A stretch of 32,888 nt of DNA from assembly GCA_025933775.1 (NCBI GenBank), contig JAICZH010000031.1, positions 1 through 32,888 on the forward strand, written 5' to 3'. The translations under genes were made by a program, and so were the position numbers. The notes below the pieces were generated by a model, which worked only from the letters and a program-made list of their open reading frames with translations, did not search any database and had not been told where the DNA came from. The stretch's first letter is position 1. Each line of letters starts with the position of its first letter. Shown piece after piece: positions 3,859-10,446 of this stretch. This DNA comes from Chitinophagaceae bacterium (lineage in GTDB: Bacteria; Bacteroidota; Bacteroidia; Chitinophagales; Chitinophagaceae).

Positions 3859-4356
3859 ATGACTTTTTCGCCGGATAAATTAAATAAAGTAAATGAACTG
3901 ATAGGTCATTATCCTGAAGGAAAACAAAAGAGCGCAATCCTTCCGGTACTGCATTTGGCGCAGGAGGAATTTGGCGGCTGGCTCGATGTAAGCACAATGG
4001 ATTATGTGGCTTCTTTATTAAAAATTCAACCAATAGAAGTGTATGAAGTGGCTACTTTTTATTCAATGTACAACATGAAGCCTGTTGGCAAATATGTTTT
4101 TGAAGTGTGCCAAACGGGGCCTTGCATGATCAACGGAAGTGATGATATTATTAAATATATTCAACAAAAATTAAATATAAAAATTGGTGAAACCACTGCT
4201 GATGGCTTGTTTACATTAAAAGTAGTTGAATGCCTTGGAGCGTGTGGTTATGCGCCCATGATGCAGCTTGGAAAAACGTATCGTGAACATCTTACCAAAG
4301 AGAAAGTGGATGCAATAATTGAAGAATGTGTAAAAAATGCAGCCGCGAATAATTAA
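3859..4356 (+). CDS. nuoE: NADH-quinone oxidoreductase subunit E
   Basis: The 24-kDa-type thioredoxin-fold subunit of the NADH-oxidising module. The 165 residues carry the N1a [2Fe-2S] ligands C84-x4-C89 (VCQTGPC) and C125-x3-C129 (CLGAC). The helical N-terminal half (PEGKQKSAILPVLHLAQEEFG) and the VATFYSMYNMKPVGK segment are typical. It works with NuoF, which is unusually far downstream: a VOC-domain gene and a frameshifted DUF2442-like gene separate the two, where nuoE and nuoF usually adjoin. Confidence 0.96.
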   Translation: MTFSPDKLNKVNELIGHYPEGKQKSAILPVLHLAQEEFGGWLDVSTMDYVASLLKIQPIEVYEVATFYSMYNMKPVGKYVFEVCQTGPCMINGSDDIIKYIQQKLNIKIGETTADGLFTLKVVECLGACGYAPMMQLGKTYREHLTKEKVDAIIEECVKNAAANN

Positions 4357-4381
4357 TATTTTTAAATAAAATTTTTAAAAC

Positions 4382-4789
4382 ATGAAACTAATTCCTTACA
4401 TCAATTTTGCAGGCAATGCCCGCGAAGCGCTTGACTTTTATAAAAAGGCATTGGATGGCGACATTCAGCAATTGGGTACGTACGGCGAAAGCCCGATGCC
4501 CAGCGATGAAGATTATAAAGATAAAGTGATGCATGCACGTTTTGTATTCGACAATAACATGATCATGGTATCGGATGTTTTTAAAGGACAACCAGTTTCC
4601 ACTGATGGAAACATTCAATTATCTGTTGATGTGGATAATGAAGAAAAATTAGAAAAGGTATTTAATAAAATGGCTGAAGGCGGAACAGTAACTATGCCCT
4701 TGGCCGATCAGTTTTGGGGCGCAAAATTCGGAATGCTGAAAGATAAATTCGGAGTAAGCTGGATGTTCAATTGTGATAAGAGGAAATGA
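4382..4789 (+). CDS. VOC-family (PhnB/glyoxalase-like) protein inside the nuo operon
   Basis: A complete 135-residue protein opening with the IPYINFAGNAREALDFYKKA pattern typical of PhnB-like members of the vicinal oxygen chelate superfamily. It has the two-module beta-alpha-beta-beta-beta layout and ends with a FWGAKFGMLKDKFGVSWMFN-type segment. Relatives include glyoxalase, bleomycin-resistance and PhnB-like proteins, so the reaction cannot be told from sequence. It is co-oriented and starts 26 bases after nuoE, so it is probably co-transcribed with nuo. It has no known role in complex I, and I regard it as an insertion into the operon. The frame is intact, so it may be functional. Confidence 0.85.
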   Translation: MKLIPYINFAGNAREALDFYKKALDGDIQQLGTYGESPMPSDEDYKDKVMHARFVFDNNMIMVSDVFKGQPVSTDGNIQLSVDVDNEEKLEKVFNKMAEGGTVTMPLADQFWGAKFGMLKDKFGVSWMFNCDKRK

Positions 4790-4798
4790 TTAAATAAA

Positions 4799-5051
4799 AT
4801 GAAACTTATTGCTGTTAAAGAAGCTAAATACATTGAGGAATATAAACTGGAAATTATTTTTATAGATGATAAAAAAAGATTCGTGGATTTTCAACCTTTC
4901 TTTTTAAAGCATAGTAATCCTCAATATAATAAATATAAAAAAAACTGAAATTTTTAAAAAATTTAAAATTGAAAACGGTAATATTATTTGGGGCAAAGAT
5001 TGGGATATGATTTTTCCTGTGTATGATTTATATCAAGGAAAAATTAATTAA
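4799..5051 (+). pseudogene. Frameshifted DUF2442-like gene
   Basis: From ATG 4799 the frame reads MKLIAVKEAKYIEEYKLEI..., then a VDFQPFF segment, as in DUF2442 proteins, but stops at TGA 4946-4948 after 49 residues. Skipping one base in the eight-A run at 4937-4944 opens the +1 frame, which continues as TEIFKKFKIENGNIIWGKDW... and ends at TAA 5049-5051. This gives an expected full length of about 83 residues. DUF2442 is a small domain of unknown role. The break is either a true one-base insertion, slippage at the A-run, or a homopolymer sequencing error. It begins ten bases after the VOC gene and ends 11 bases before nuoF. Confidence 0.65.
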
Positions 5052-5062
5052 TAATTTATAGC

Positions 5063-6418
5063 ATGTCAAAAAAATTATTATTAGATAAAATAAATGTTGA
5101 AGGCATCAAAACTTTTGAAGTGTATCGCCGTGAAGGTGGCTACAAAAGTGTAAAGAAAGCTTTGCAAATGAAGCCCGGTGATATTGTAGAAGAAGTAAAA
5201 AAAAGCGGGCTGAGAGGCCGTGGTGGCGCTGGTTTCCCTACAGGAATGAAGTGGAGCTTTCTTGCAAAGCCCGAAGGAATTGCAAGATATTTGGTTTGTA
5301 ATGCTGATGAAAGTGAACCGGGAACTTTTAAAGATAGATATTTAATGGAATTCATTCCGCACCTTTTGATTGAAGGAATGATTGTTTCATCTTTTGCATT
5401 AGGAAGCAATGTTTCCTACATCTACATTCGTGGCGAGTACGATTGGATAACAGATATTTTACAAACAGCTATTGATGAAGCAAAACAAAATGGATTTCTC
5501 GGAAAAAATATTTTAGGAAGCGGATTCGATTGCGAATTGTATTTACATCGCGGAGCAGGCGCATACATTTGTGGTGAAGAAACTGCACTACTCGAAAGCC
5601 TCGAAGGTAAAAGAGGATTGCCAAGAATTAAACCGCCTTTTCCGGCTGTGAAAGGTGTATGGGGTTGCCCTACGGTTGTAAATAATGTAGAAACAATAGC
5701 TGCAATAGTTCCAATAATAAATGATGGTGGAGAAGCTTATTCGAAAATTGGTGTTGGAAAATCAACAGGCACAAAATTAATCTCAGCATGTGGCAACATT
5801 AATAAACAAGGTGTTTATGAAATTGATATGACCCTTTCGGTAGAAGAATTTATTTACAGCGATGAATATTGCGGAGGTATTGCAAATGGAAAAAGATTAA
5901 AAGCATGTATTCCCGGTGGTTCTTCAGTTCCTATTTTGCCGGCAAATCTTTTATTGAAAACTGCCAAAGGCGAAACCCGATTGATGAATTATGAAAGCCT
6001 TTCCGATGGCGGATTTGCAACGGGCAGCATGATGGGCTCCGGTGGTTTTATTGTTTTAGATGAAGATCAATGTGTGGTTCGTAATACACTTACGTTGGCA
6101 AGATTTTATCATCACGAAAGTTGCGGACAATGCTCACCTTGCCGCGAAGGTTCCGGTTGGATGGAAAAAATTTTGCACAAAATTGAATATGGAAAAGGAG
6201 AAATGAAAGATATAGATTTGCTTTGGGACATTCAACGGAAAATAGAAGGCAACACCATTTGTCCGCTCGGAGATGCAGCAGCATGGCCTGTTGCAGCCGC
6301 CATCAGACATTTCAGAGATGAGTTTGAATGGCACATTTTAAATCCTGAAGAATGTTTAAAAAGAAATTATGGATTGGCGCATTATGCGGATGCGATAGAA
6401 AATTCTGTGATAAGTTAA
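5063..6418 (+). CDS. nuoF: NADH-quinone oxidoreductase subunit F
   Basis: The 51-kDa-type NADH- and FMN-binding subunit, where electrons enter complex I. The 451-residue protein has the glycine-rich GLRGRGGAGFPTGMKW at residues 49-64, the flavin-site NADESEPGTFKDR at 80-92, ICGEETALLESLEG at 169-182, and the N3 [4Fe-4S] ligands C354, C357, C360 (SCGQCSPC) and C400 (ICPLGDA). All expected elements are present and the length is normal. Three bases after its stop begins a CTTTGCG-repeat arm flanking the next, unrelated gene. Confidence 0.97.
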   Translation: MSKKLLLDKINVEGIKTFEVYRREGGYKSVKKALQMKPGDIVEEVKKSGLRGRGGAGFPTGMKWSFLAKPEGIARYLVCNADESEPGTFKDRYLMEFIPHLLIEGMIVSSFALGSNVSYIYIRGEYDWITDILQTAIDEAKQNGFLGKNILGSGFDCELYLHRGAGAYICGEETALLESLEGKRGLPRIKPPFPAVKGVWGCPTVVNNVETIAAIVPIINDGGEAYSKIGVGKSTGTKLISACGNINKQGVYEIDMTLSVEEFIYSDEYCGGIANGKRLKACIPGGSSVPILPANLLLKTAKGETRLMNYESLSDGGFATGSMMGSGGFIVLDEDQCVVRNTLTLARFYHHESCGQCSPCREGSGWMEKILHKIEYGKGEMKDIDLLWDIQRKIEGNTICPLGDAAAWPVAAAIRHFRDEFEWHILNPEECLKRNYGLAHYADAIENSVIS

Positions 6419-6423
6419 ATATA

Positions 6424-6461
6424 CTTTGCGTTCTTTGCGAAACCTTGCTCACTTTGCGATA
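6424..6461. repeat. Left arm of inverted repeats framing the GxxExxY gene
   Basis: CTTTGCG occurs three times here (6424-6430, 6433-6439, 6452-6458). The ten-base blocks GTTCTTTGCG (6430-6439) and CTTTGCGATA (6452-6461) are both perfectly complementary, in nested order, to blocks in the right arm at 6852-6885. The intervening 12 bases match only weakly. The arm starts within six bases of the nuoF stop. Confidence 0.8.
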
Positions 6462-6469
6462 CTTACTTT

Positions 6470-6850
6470 ATGCCAACAGAAAATGAACTGTCAAATATAA
6501 TTATAGGAGAGGCCATCTATATTCATAAATCTTTAGGGCCAGGTTTATTAGAATCTGCTTATAAAGAATGTCTTTATTACAGGTTAATAAAAAAAGAATT
6601 GAATTTAGTAAAAGAAAAACCAATCCCATTAATTTTTGAAGAAATAAAGATGGAATGTGGATATAGAGTAGATTTAATTGTAGAAAATAAAGTTATAATT
6701 GAAATTAAATGCGTGGATGTTTTAGCAGATATTCATAAAGCTCAAACGTTAACTTATTTGCGCCTTACCGGTATTAAACTTGGACTTCTTATAAATTTTA
6801 ATGTTATCCTTTTAAAAGATGGTTTGAAAAGGATTGTAAATAATTTATAA
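6470..6850 (+). CDS. GxxExxY family protein (PD-(D/E)XK-like) inserted between nuoF and nuoG
   Basis: The 126-residue product contains the family-naming motif G25-x2-E28-x2-Y31 (GPGLLESAY) after a helical start with IHKSLG. It is followed by a PD-(D/E)XK-like core: D68 in GYRVDLIV and E78-x-K80 in VIIEIKCVD. The C-terminal half (HKAQTLTYLRLTGIKLGLLINF) matches the family (PF13366-type). These proteins are assigned to the nuclease superfamily, but to my knowledge their role is not established. The gene fills the nuoF-nuoG gap and is framed by inverted CTTTGCG repeats, suggesting a cassette. The frame is intact and co-oriented with nuo. The putative catalytic residues are present, so activity is possible. 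Confidence 0.9.
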   Translation: MPTENELSNIIIGEAIYIHKSLGPGLLESAYKECLYYRLIKKELNLVKEKPIPLIFEEIKMECGYRVDLIVENKVIIEIKCVDVLADIHKAQTLTYLRLTGIKLGLLINFNVILLKDGLKRIVNNL

Positions 6851-6851
6851 A

Positions 6852-6885
6852 TATCGCAAAGAAGGCTAAGACAAGCGCAAAGAAC
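6852..6885. repeat. Right arm of inverted repeats framing the GxxExxY gene
   Basis: TATCGCAAAG (6852-6861) and CGCAAAGAAC (6876-6885) are perfect reverse complements of the inner and outer blocks of the left arm at 6430-6461, separated here by 14 bases instead of 12. The arm begins two bases after the GxxExxY stop and ends 12 bases before the nuoG ATG, so the two arms and the gene account for nearly the whole interval. Confidence 0.8.
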
Positions 6886-6897
6886 ATTAAGAAAATT

Positions 6898-8094
6898 ATG
6901 CCCGACGAACAAAAATTATTTAAAGTAACGATAGATAACATCACCATTGATGTTCCTGCTGGCACTTCTATATTAAATGCTGCAAGAATGATAGGTGGTG
7001 AAGTGGCGCCTCCTGCAATGTGCTACTACAGTAAGCTGGAAGGCAGTGGCGGTAAATGCAGAACCTGTTTGGTAGAAGTTGCGGCAGGTTCTACTGCCGA
7101 TCCGAGACCAATGCCAAAGCTGGTTGCAAGCTGCCGTACCAATGTTATGGATGGAATGGTTGTAAAAAATATTACCAGCGAAAAAGTAATTGATGCAAGA
7201 AAAGGTGTTGTTGAATTTTTATTAATTAATCATCCACTCGATTGCCCGGTTTGCGATCAGGCAGGCGAATGTTATTTACAGGATTTAGGTTATGAGCACG
7301 GCGCCGTACAAACTCGTTATGAATTTAAAAGAAGAACTTTTGTAAGAGAAGATATTGGCCGATACATTCAATTGCACATGACGCGGTGTATTCTTTGTTA
7401 TCGCTGTGTGTATGTTGCCAATCAATTAACCGATCACCGCGTGCATGGCATTTTAGATCGCGGGGATTGCTCCGATATTTCAACTTATATTTCAAAAGCA
7501 ATTGAAAATGATTTCAGCGGAAATATGATTGATGTTTGTCCGGTGGGCGCATTAACGGATAGAACTTTCAGGTTTAAAAATCGTGTCTGGTTTTTAAAAC
7601 CAATGGATGCACATCGCGATTGTGATAAATGTTGCGGTAAAGTAACATTATGGAATCGGGGCGATGAAGTGTATCGTGTTACAGCCCGTAAAGATGAATG
7701 GGGCGAAGTACAAAGTGATGAAAACGGAAAGGCAATGTGGATTTGTAATACCTGCCGTTTTGATAAAAAAAATACATCCGATTGGATTATTGAAAAACCA
7801 ACATCCATCAACAGGCATTCTGTTATTTCTGCCAATCATTATGAAGTAAAAGTAATGCCCGATGATCCTTTGGATAAATTATTAAATGGAAGAGAGCCTT
7901 TGTTATTGATGAACATACATGAAGCCAGTCAAGTAAATCAGCAGGATGTACATCTGGATGAATTGCCAGGGCCGGCTACGTATGAAACTTTTAATGGAGA
8001 ACCTTTTTCAACAGGACATAATGTAACGGATATTAAAGAAAGTCTTGGAGTGAATACACAAGGAACGGATTCAACAAATCCAAATACGCCGTGA
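6898..8094 (+). CDS. nuoG: NADH-quinone oxidoreductase subunit G, short form
   Basis: Fe-S subunit passing electrons from NuoF towards NuoI. Of 398 residues, the N-terminal ferredoxin domain holds C42, C54, C57, C79 ([2Fe-2S] N1b). H112, C116, C119, C125 form the His-ligated N5 site, and C164, C167, C170, C214 the N4 site. A further Cys set (C242, C245/C246, C283, C286) resembles the cluster-binding start of the molybdopterin-like domain, but that large C-terminal domain is missing. Short NuoG forms are, to my knowledge, usual in Bacteroidota, so this is probably normal and not a truncation. The polar tail (residues 370-398) is poorly conserved. nuoH follows directly. Confidence 0.94.
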   Translation: MPDEQKLFKVTIDNITIDVPAGTSILNAARMIGGEVAPPAMCYYSKLEGSGGKCRTCLVEVAAGSTADPRPMPKLVASCRTNVMDGMVVKNITSEKVIDARKGVVEFLLINHPLDCPVCDQAGECYLQDLGYEHGAVQTRYEFKRRTFVREDIGRYIQLHMTRCILCYRCVYVANQLTDHRVHGILDRGDCSDISTYISKAIENDFSGNMIDVCPVGALTDRTFRFKNRVWFLKPMDAHRDCDKCCGKVTLWNRGDEVYRVTARKDEWGEVQSDENGKAMWICNTCRFDKKNTSDWIIEKPTSINRHSVISANHYEVKVMPDDPLDKLLNGREPLLLMNIHEASQVNQQDVHLDELPGPATYETFNGEPFSTGHNVTDIKESLGVNTQGTDSTNPNTP

Positions 8095-8136
8095 TTGTTT
8101 ATTAGACAATTTTATTTTGAATTTATAATTTTACTT

Positions 8137-10360: not shown

Positions 10361-10446
10361 TGTAAGTGGTGAATGGTCACTGGTCAATAGGCAATAAGCA
10401 ATAAGAAATAAGCAATAATAAAACAATTCAATAATAAAATAATTCA
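10361..10446. repeat. CAATAAGC-rich spacer repeat, copy 3
   Basis: The nuoI-nuoJ gap reads GTGAATGGTCACTGGTC, then CAATAGGCAATAAGCAATAA with more AATAAGC-like units (period about 7 to 10), then CAATTCAATAATAAAATAA. It shares CAATAGGCAA with the nuoB-nuoC gap and GCAATAAGCAA with the nuoD-downstream gap. No gene is present in it. Confidence 0.5.

Follow-up and report, generated by a model that had tools for sequence, protein, structure and literature searches.

What is a small nuclease-like gene, enclosed by inverted repeats, doing between nuoF and nuoG? The question is raised by a stretch of 32,888 nucleotides from a Chitinophagaceae bacterium (contig JAICZH010000031.1), referred to here as the window, in which a gene of the GxxExxY family occupies that junction. 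Genes of this family are annotated in many genomes by motif alone, and among the titles and abstracts listed by searches of the open literature, no link of GxxExxY/PDDEXK_3 proteins to repeats or mobility was found. A preliminary description of the locus took it for a minimal mobile cassette, or else for a gene that needs its flanking hairpins. In this study, the locus was compared with its counterparts in 59 genomes, comprising the window's own genome (G000) and related ones, and with further members of the family from named genomes. On balance, the segment from 6424 to 6891 appears to be an element similar to the REP/RAYT systems, the nuclease of which would read its own repeats.

Structure of the locus between nuoF and nuoG

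The features of the locus are listed in Table 1.

Table 1. Genes and repeat arms at the nuoF-nuoG junction of the window.
Feature	Position	Strand	Basis or remark
nuoF, upstream host gene	5063..6418	+	TIGR01959, 586 bits, above cut-off
Left arm, four units	6424..6461	.	Repeats and pattern matches
Units of left arm	6424-6430, 6433-6439, 6443-6449 (degenerate), 6452-6458		Spacing 9-10-9, then ATA
GxxExxY gene, 126 aa, predicted PD-(D/E)XK fold	6470..6850	+	TIGR04256, 137.5 bits (cut-off 35); PF13366, 134.1 bits (cut-off 22)
Right arm, four units, inverse of left arm	6852..6891	.	Sequence, repeats and pattern matches
Units of right arm	6855-6861, 6864-6870, 6876-6882, 6885-6891		Spacing 9-12-9
nuoG, N-terminal part, downstream host gene	6898..8094	+	TIGR01973, Fer2_4, NADH-G_4Fe-4S_3, Fer4_Nqo3

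Its score, its motif, and its predicted fold all place the window protein clearly in the GxxExxY/PDDEXK_3 family. Residues G25, E28, Y31, D68, E78 and K80 are invariant in an alignment of 18 diverse members, and the D...ExK residues (D68, E78 and K80) are taken here, from the fold class, to be the active site. The AlphaFold2 model, with a mean pLDDT of 94.7, has a predicted PD-(D/E)XK nuclease fold; the nearest folds given by Foldseek are Cas4 SSO0001, LHK-Exo, and lambda exonuclease, with probabilities of mostly 0.9-1.0, TM-scores by query of about 0.5, and a best E value of 1.1e-3 (none at or below 0.001). No relative of solved structure was found by sequence at E <= 1. PF13366 is the only domain in the protein at E <= 0.001; a Y1 (HUH) transposase domain is absent, and the protein is not an S23p four-helix bundle. 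For the downstream host gene, TIGR01973 (NuoG) is the best NCBIfam match, at 274 bits under a model cut-off of 470.

Each arm is made of four 7-bp units of the CRCNRAG type. The inverted arms reported at both gene junctions were confirmed as two exact and properly nested 10-mer pairs, the outer one formed by GTTCTTTGCG at 6430 with CGCAAAGAAC at 6876, and the inner one by CTTTGCGATA at 6452 with TATCGCAAAG at 6852. Gene and arms together fill the interval between nuoF and nuoG, as had been described; the arms themselves extend further than was first thought, and the element covers 6424-6891. The site lies between nuoF and nuoG and not inside a 23S rRNA gene, and no Rfam family matched positions 5000-8100 of the window at E <= 0.1.

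Taken alone, the window arms match only moderately beyond chance. When the two intergenic pieces were resampled 5000 times by a first-order model, 54 resamples reached their alignment score of 24, a value that coincides with the family threshold, and 17 reached their three overlapping exact 10-mer matches. A two-unit pattern with up to two mismatches had four matches in the whole window, all of them in the two arms, with 1.8 expected by chance and four reached in 12 of 100 shuffles. The arms are secure because the homologous locus of G015, at the same junction, has a flank alignment score of 52. By eye, the left arms of G009 and G015, the two closest relatives of G000, are nearly identical to the left arm of the window, and the right arm of G000 is unlike theirs at about ten positions.

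The nuoF-nuoG junction in related genomes

A NuoG query had matches in 49 of the 59 genomes, some of them only distant homologues. Thirty nuoG loci were sampled, the window included, and nuoF was within reach in 28. Relatives with an empty junction, which the proposal of a mobile gene leads one to look for, are common: 18 of the 28 junctions hold no gene and have gaps of 5-100 bp, 11 of them in the same genus. The presence of the gene at this site in all relatives, which would have refuted that proposal, is thus not what the junctions show. A GxxExxY gene is present at seven of the 28 junctions (G000, G009, G015, G020, G028, G029, and G030), with at least four different arm sequences among the seven. 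An eighth GxxExxY locus at the junction, in G019, falls outside the 28, nuoG there being split over contigs. Other contents were also found, namely an intact four-helix-bundle gene with its own arms in G022, a probable remnant of a four-helix-bundle gene in G026 (E 0.001), and 879 bp of other sequence in G031. At the junction of G027 (L144), a 100-bp gap holds a 9-bp tandem array of GTGAATGAG units and no gene, and this array is possibly a solo or decayed element.

On the protein tree, the GxxExxY residents of the junction correspond to five changes. A single clade of junction residents, such as one ancestral insertion with changing arms would leave in place of repeated insertion, was not rejected by the AU test (p 0.143), in the input of which the row for L042 had the protein of an adjoining second copy. 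Among G000, G009, and G015 the gene has a dN/dS of 0.08-0.12 and is under purifying selection. The dS of nuoF among the same three genomes is 0.7-1.2, and the dS of the gene lies below that of both nuoF and nuoG in all three pairs.

Inverted flanks across the GxxExxY family

Matches to TIGR04256 are present in 42 of the 59 genomes, the window's own included. The loci returned by the search were combined with 60 places taken by coordinates, which gave 101 ORFs in 97 loci; 82 were kept after broken, duplicated, partial, and short-flanked copies had been dropped. For each locus, the upstream 250 bp was aligned locally with the reverse complement of the downstream 250 bp, and the threshold was set at a score of 24, the 99th percentile of mononucleotide shuffles. 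In the own and related genomes, inverted flanks reached this threshold at 60 of the 82 GxxExxY loci and at 1 of 45 control ORFs, the controls being other ORFs from the same set of loci. Of 1230 pairs made by combining the upstream flank of one locus with the downstream flank of another, 97 reached it. The flanks of these genomes also match as direct repeats at 45 of the 82 loci, since a flank often contains a whole palindromic element.

A scan of named genomes yielded at least 573 relatives, of which 80 were kept; nine of the 80 were then set aside because the ORF stopped early or a flank was short. Inverted flanks at the threshold were found at 50 of the 71 named loci, in several phyla, against 9 of 111 control ORFs. 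Mismatched pairs among the named loci reached the threshold in 219 of 1065 cases because many of these loci have one arm class in common. With the phylum taken as it stands in the record name, many of the records being metagenome bins, the loci at the threshold come from Bacteroidota, Planctomycetota (L163, L231), Acidobacteria (L239), Cyanobacteria (L213), Alphaproteobacteria (L233), Anaerolineae (L228), Melioribacter (L162), and Neomarinimicrobiota (L215), and those under it include loci of Spartobacteria (L212), Ignavibacteria (L229), and Acidobacteria (L180 and L237). Altogether, inverted flanks at the threshold are missing from 22 of the 82 and 21 of the 71 loci, a further copy of the window's own genome (L002) among them.

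The comparison of flanks in relatives proposed with the preliminary description thus finds inverted arms at most GxxExxY loci and at few control ORFs. Chance as the source of the flanks in the family is rejected by the control ORFs and the shuffles. Members of the family occur at unrelated sites, such as between fabD and fabG or adjoining radA, and eight plasmid records have a GxxExxY match. On a plasmid of Sphingomonas parapaucimobilis (L242), the gene at 3971-4399 stands between the partner genes fabD and fabG. In two other loci (L074 and L069) both flanks hold perfect or near-perfect palindromes (TCCCGATAGCTATCGGGA), unlike the arms made of unit arrays.

Arm classes and protein lineage

The preliminary description proposed looking for the CTTTGCG arms of the window outside every copy of the gene. 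CTTTGCG as a universal arm is rejected: it belongs to a single class among at least five. The arms were labelled by five motifs, written after the arms had been inspected: A, CRCNRAG; B, TCTGAA[CT]; C, CRCNGAT; D, CGAATT type; and E, CACATAG. A label was given to 119 of the 153 loci, leaving 34 without one.

Mapped onto a quick maximum-likelihood tree of all 153 proteins, the arm class needs 7 changes; 200 shuffles never gave fewer than 28 and averaged 31.7. When only the own and related genomes are considered, there are 6 changes, and in 300 shuffles within genomes the number never fell below 14 and averaged 22.1 (58 labelled loci from 30 genomes, 12 of which have two or more classes). Therefore, host background does not explain the arm class. 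Across host families, protein identity is correlated with arm similarity at a Mantel r of 0.387 (0 of 200 permutations, maximum 0.066), each named locus being treated as its own host family, so that some pairs may be closer than intended; without the named loci the value is 0.241 (0 of 500 permutations, maximum 0.096). The within-genome shuffle is a cleaner control than the Mantel test with r 0.387. Overall, the arm sequence varies among subfamilies yet follows the GxxExxY protein tree. In RAYTs, the repeat class goes with the protein clade.

Three arm classes can be distinguished by eye among the GxxExxY copies of the window's own genome. One broken copy (L004/L005, G000:C128) has arms of the TTACACGAATT type, and another copy (L003, G000:C36) lies between TCTGAACCATGATT arms.

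Geometry of the arms

Pairs of CRCNRAG units in the flanks have spacing peaks at 8-10, 20-21, and 29-30 bp, of which almost none is seen in shuffles, and smaller peaks at 12 and 16 bp. Spacings of this kind would be given by two pairs of sites two helical turns apart. The 9-bp period of the GxxExxY arms is weak by plain autocorrelation and becomes clear only when the positions of the units are scored. The direction of the units was scored for 86 class-A loci and is canonical in 60, inside-out in 19, and tied in 7, where inside-out means that the gene is faced by the end which forms the terminus of solo elements. The arms of the window and of three same-genus relatives with the gene between nuoF and nuoG (L025, L026, and L032) are inside-out. 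Therefore, at such loci, the window included, the gene does not simply lie within a palindrome.

Gene-less elements

Arms are also found elsewhere without a gene. Measured by the second refuting condition of the preliminary description, arms at intergenic sites that lack such genes, the outcome is mixed, as gene-less copies are also to be expected of miniature elements. One solo element of the CGCAAAG class has 11 matches in the window's own genome, with the query copy and partial copies counted; the fuller copies are about 100 bp long and have an arm at either end. The class-B end TCTGAACCATGATTTGGG has exact copies in 7 of the 59 genomes, the window's own included, and its reversed control has none. 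In G000 and G006 the only two copies of TCTGAACCATGATTTGGG form an inverted pair around a GxxExxY gene. In 18 stretches around the class-B end (from G007, G009, G010, G015, and G023), both inverted ends are present in 13, and the second end was unmatched by the exact pattern in five. Twelve of the 13 two-ended stretches measure 103-142 bp, and the other one, of 265 bp, has four tandem left ends.

The gene-less elements resemble MITEs in their size of about 100-140 bp, their inverted ends, and their lack of a gene. The class-B copies inspected differ from MITEs in that their interiors vary from copy to copy, and by eye no target-site duplication was apparent in them. No dated insertion or recent transposition event was seen among the genomes compared.

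The two-unit class-A motif is present in 29 of the 59 genomes, with gene-borne arms counted too. Two or more copies of it occur in 19 of the 42 genomes with a TIGR04256 match, against 1 of the 17 without (Fisher p 0.003, weak matches being counted as presence). Two genomes with many ends and no intact gene count against the simplest model, in that 7 class-B ends were found in G007 without any match to GxxExxY, and G053 has 38 matches to the class-A motif and only one weak GxxExxY fragment of 27 bits.

Four-helix-bundle genes in similar arms

A second gene family, TIGR02436, presumably the same family as S23p, encodes four-helix bundles and has matches in 50 of the 59 genomes. Its member in the window's own genome (L098) likewise lies between inverted repeats. 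From a sample of 33 loci, mostly the best-scoring ones, 30 were usable, and inverted flanks reached the threshold at 21 of these 30. The 21 arm sets have a strong 7-bp period, with an excess of 0.26 at lag 7 and of 0.21 at lag 14. In this family, too, the similarity of the arms goes with the identity of the proteins (r 0.181, reached by 1 of 1000 permutations; 30 loci, with host kinship uncontrolled). Since four-helix-bundle genes, which have no nuclease fold, lie in similar arms, the arms alone do not require a nuclease.

The intervening sequence (IVS) of Coxiella 23S rRNA is described in PMC4990558 as having tandem heptamers and inverted repeats, as being excised by RNase III, and as encoding S23p, a protein with four helices; its distribution is sporadic, and it has been proposed there to be mobile or selfish. 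The intergenic four-helix-bundle genes found here, with their clear 7-bp units, are comparable to this IVS with its heptamers (PMC4990558), and the two may well form one class. The S23p IVS also resembles the GxxExxY element in its small ORF, inverted repeats, short tandem units, and sporadic distribution (PMC4990558). The GxxExxY element differs from it in that its protein is unrelated, its units are spaced by 8-9 bp, it lies between protein genes, and it bears no sign of selection for RNA pairing. A Y1 transposase gene in G055 (L281, G055:C2) is flanked by inverted arrays that, by eye, resemble the 7-bp units of the four-helix-bundle loci.

Possible function and alternative explanations

In REP/RAYT systems, as presented in PMC3733652, a small gene for a Y1/HUH transposase lies between inverted palindromic repeats, and the REPs, which fall into several families, also occur without such a gene in intergenic DNA, where two often lie near one another in opposite orientations. 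The GxxExxY element is similar in having a single gene in inverted repeats and in the presence of these repeats alone elsewhere in the genome. It is unlike them in its protein, which is a PD-(D/E)XK nuclease by fold prediction and not Y1/HUH, and in its arm, which is a four-unit array of about 9-11-9 bp, whereas a REP is one palindrome of 20-40 bp.

The arms, their match to the protein subfamily, the solo copies, the presence or absence of the gene at the junction, its purifying selection, and its conserved active-site residues were all obtained from the genomes compared. The lineage of this nuclease-fold protein predicts the sequence of its flanking array, and gene-less copies of the same ends exist; a protein that recognises the arms would explain both best. 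The preferred scheme, somewhat more likely than not, is as follows. The element consists of one nuclease-fold gene between two inverted arms of four short units each. The units are separated by slightly less than one helical turn (9 bp) and by about two (20-21 bp). As duplex DNA, these arms would most likely be bound by the GxxExxY protein that the same element encodes, with several subunits per arm, and the bound protein may then cut at or near the arms. Such cutting could help the element to be copied or moved into short gaps between genes, and short gene-less elements with the same ends could be moved in trans. Against this scheme count the absence of any target-site duplication seen by eye and of a dated insertion, the ends in genomes without an intact gene, the inside-out arms, the flanks that match as direct repeats, the four-helix-bundle genes in arms of similar design, the loci with flanks under the threshold or with no arm class, and the altered right arm of G000. 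As regards the minimal mobile cassette that was proposed for the window, a cassette bounded by repeats is supported and holds more widely in the family, while its mobility is suggested rather than proven.

Two other readings of the arms have to be weighed. The arms could be those of miniature elements moved by another enzyme, for example a Y1/RAYT transposase, with the GxxExxY and four-helix-bundle genes as cargo. This would agree with the Y1_Tnp matches in 49 of the 59 genomes (the window's own included), with the similar arms around two unrelated gene families, and with the solo ends in genomes without an intact gene. However, in a sample of 20 Y1 loci inverted flanks reached the threshold at 9, for the most part with other sequences, and one of the GxxExxY arm classes was present at 1, which leaves Y1/RAYT transposases unsupported as owners of the arms; moreover, cargo is not expected to match the arm class so tightly, especially within one genome. 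Overall, the cargo explanation appears unlikely. An intervening sequence acting at the RNA level is a slightly less likely candidate still. According to it, the arms pair in the polycistronic transcript and are kept for this pairing, and the ORF is looped out and cut away by RNase III, which would let an operon tolerate the insert. Orientation is the strongest argument for an RNA role: GxxExxY genes lie along the transcription of co-directional neighbours in 90 cases and against it in 6 (of 153 loci, 33 with divergent or convergent neighbours and 24 not scorable), and four-helix-bundle genes in 24 cases and 1 (of 30 loci). In addition, the window segment folds as RNA with its arms paired (z -3.16), and the Coxiella IVS offers a precedent in its inverted repeats, heptamer repeats, and RNase III excision (PMC4990558). 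The orientation bias, however, fits selection against antisense inserts or the need of a host promoter, and pairing alone predicts neither solo elements nor arm classes that follow the protein. Transitions between the two arms are G:U-compatible in 123 cases and incompatible (A:C-type) in 113 (p 0.56; 110 GxxExxY loci), and the corresponding counts at the four-helix-bundle loci are 13 and 22. Therefore, with no excess of G:U between the arms, recognition of DNA is favoured over pairing of RNA; although the RNA folds, pairing as the selected property is unsupported, and the idea of a gene that needs its flanking hairpins is weakened at this level.

Two further explanations concern the gene more than its arms, and both seem very improbable. 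A resident gene, that is, a conserved complex I accessory or a hairpin-regulated gene with no mobility, would account for the purifying selection (dN/dS as given above) and for the shared site in G000, G009, and G015, but it is contradicted as a general account by the 18 empty junctions, the members of the family at unrelated sites such as fabD-fabG and radA, and the copies of the ends elsewhere. A defence or toxin-antitoxin gene lying between repeats would be consistent with the nuclease fold, the patchy distribution, the several copies per genome, and a very weak PHROG match (E 0.016) that is CRISPR/Cas-associated. Against this, the window gene has no match among the PADLOC models at E <= 1, which speaks against a known defence family, and no partner gene adjoins the window copy. 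Phage or viral carriage was also not found, with no GxxExxY match in the phage collection and no confirmed one in the viral contigs; an exception is an algal virus genome in which a GxxExxY protein is listed (PMC12085832).

With the recognition of its own arms by the nuclease as the preferred reading, a broader scheme can be put forward, which we regard as possible rather than probable. GxxExxY proteins might serve specifically as the mobility nucleases of single-gene elements that form one superfamily across phyla, in which each protein lineage reads its own unit-array arm, with four units about 9-11-9 bp apart in the largest arm class, and mobilises gene-less copies in trans. The S23p elements, including the 23S IVS, would then be a sister design with 7-bp units, two unrelated small proteins having founded parallel classes of unit-array elements that invade the same gaps in operons. 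If each of the GxxExxY proteins does read its own repeats, a large and unexplained protein family would be given a function, and one class of short repeats between genes, in Bacteroidota and in further phyla, would be traced to a source. The family would also supply a natural series of small nucleases, each with its matching DNA site, the specificity of which could be read from sequence, and the long-unexplained IVS of 23S rRNA would be tied to a wider class of elements of the same architecture.

Other repeats in the nuo operon of the window

Two more repeat structures were noticed in the window. At the nuoA-nuoB junction (1008-1117) there is an inverted pair of units of the 7-bp type without a gene, AATTAGCCAATTAGCTGATG ... 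GCTAATTAGCACATTAGCTAATTGGCACATTA, and by eye these arms belong to the same arm family as those of the four-helix-bundle gene L098 of the same genome. Between a Fer4 subunit gene and the gene for complex I chain 6 (10365-10446) there is a tandem heptamer-like array (GGTGAATGGTCACTGGTCAATAGGCAATAAGCAATAAG...), possibly a one-armed trace of an element of the four-helix-bundle type. If the array is such a trace, the nuo operon would bear three traces of repeat elements.
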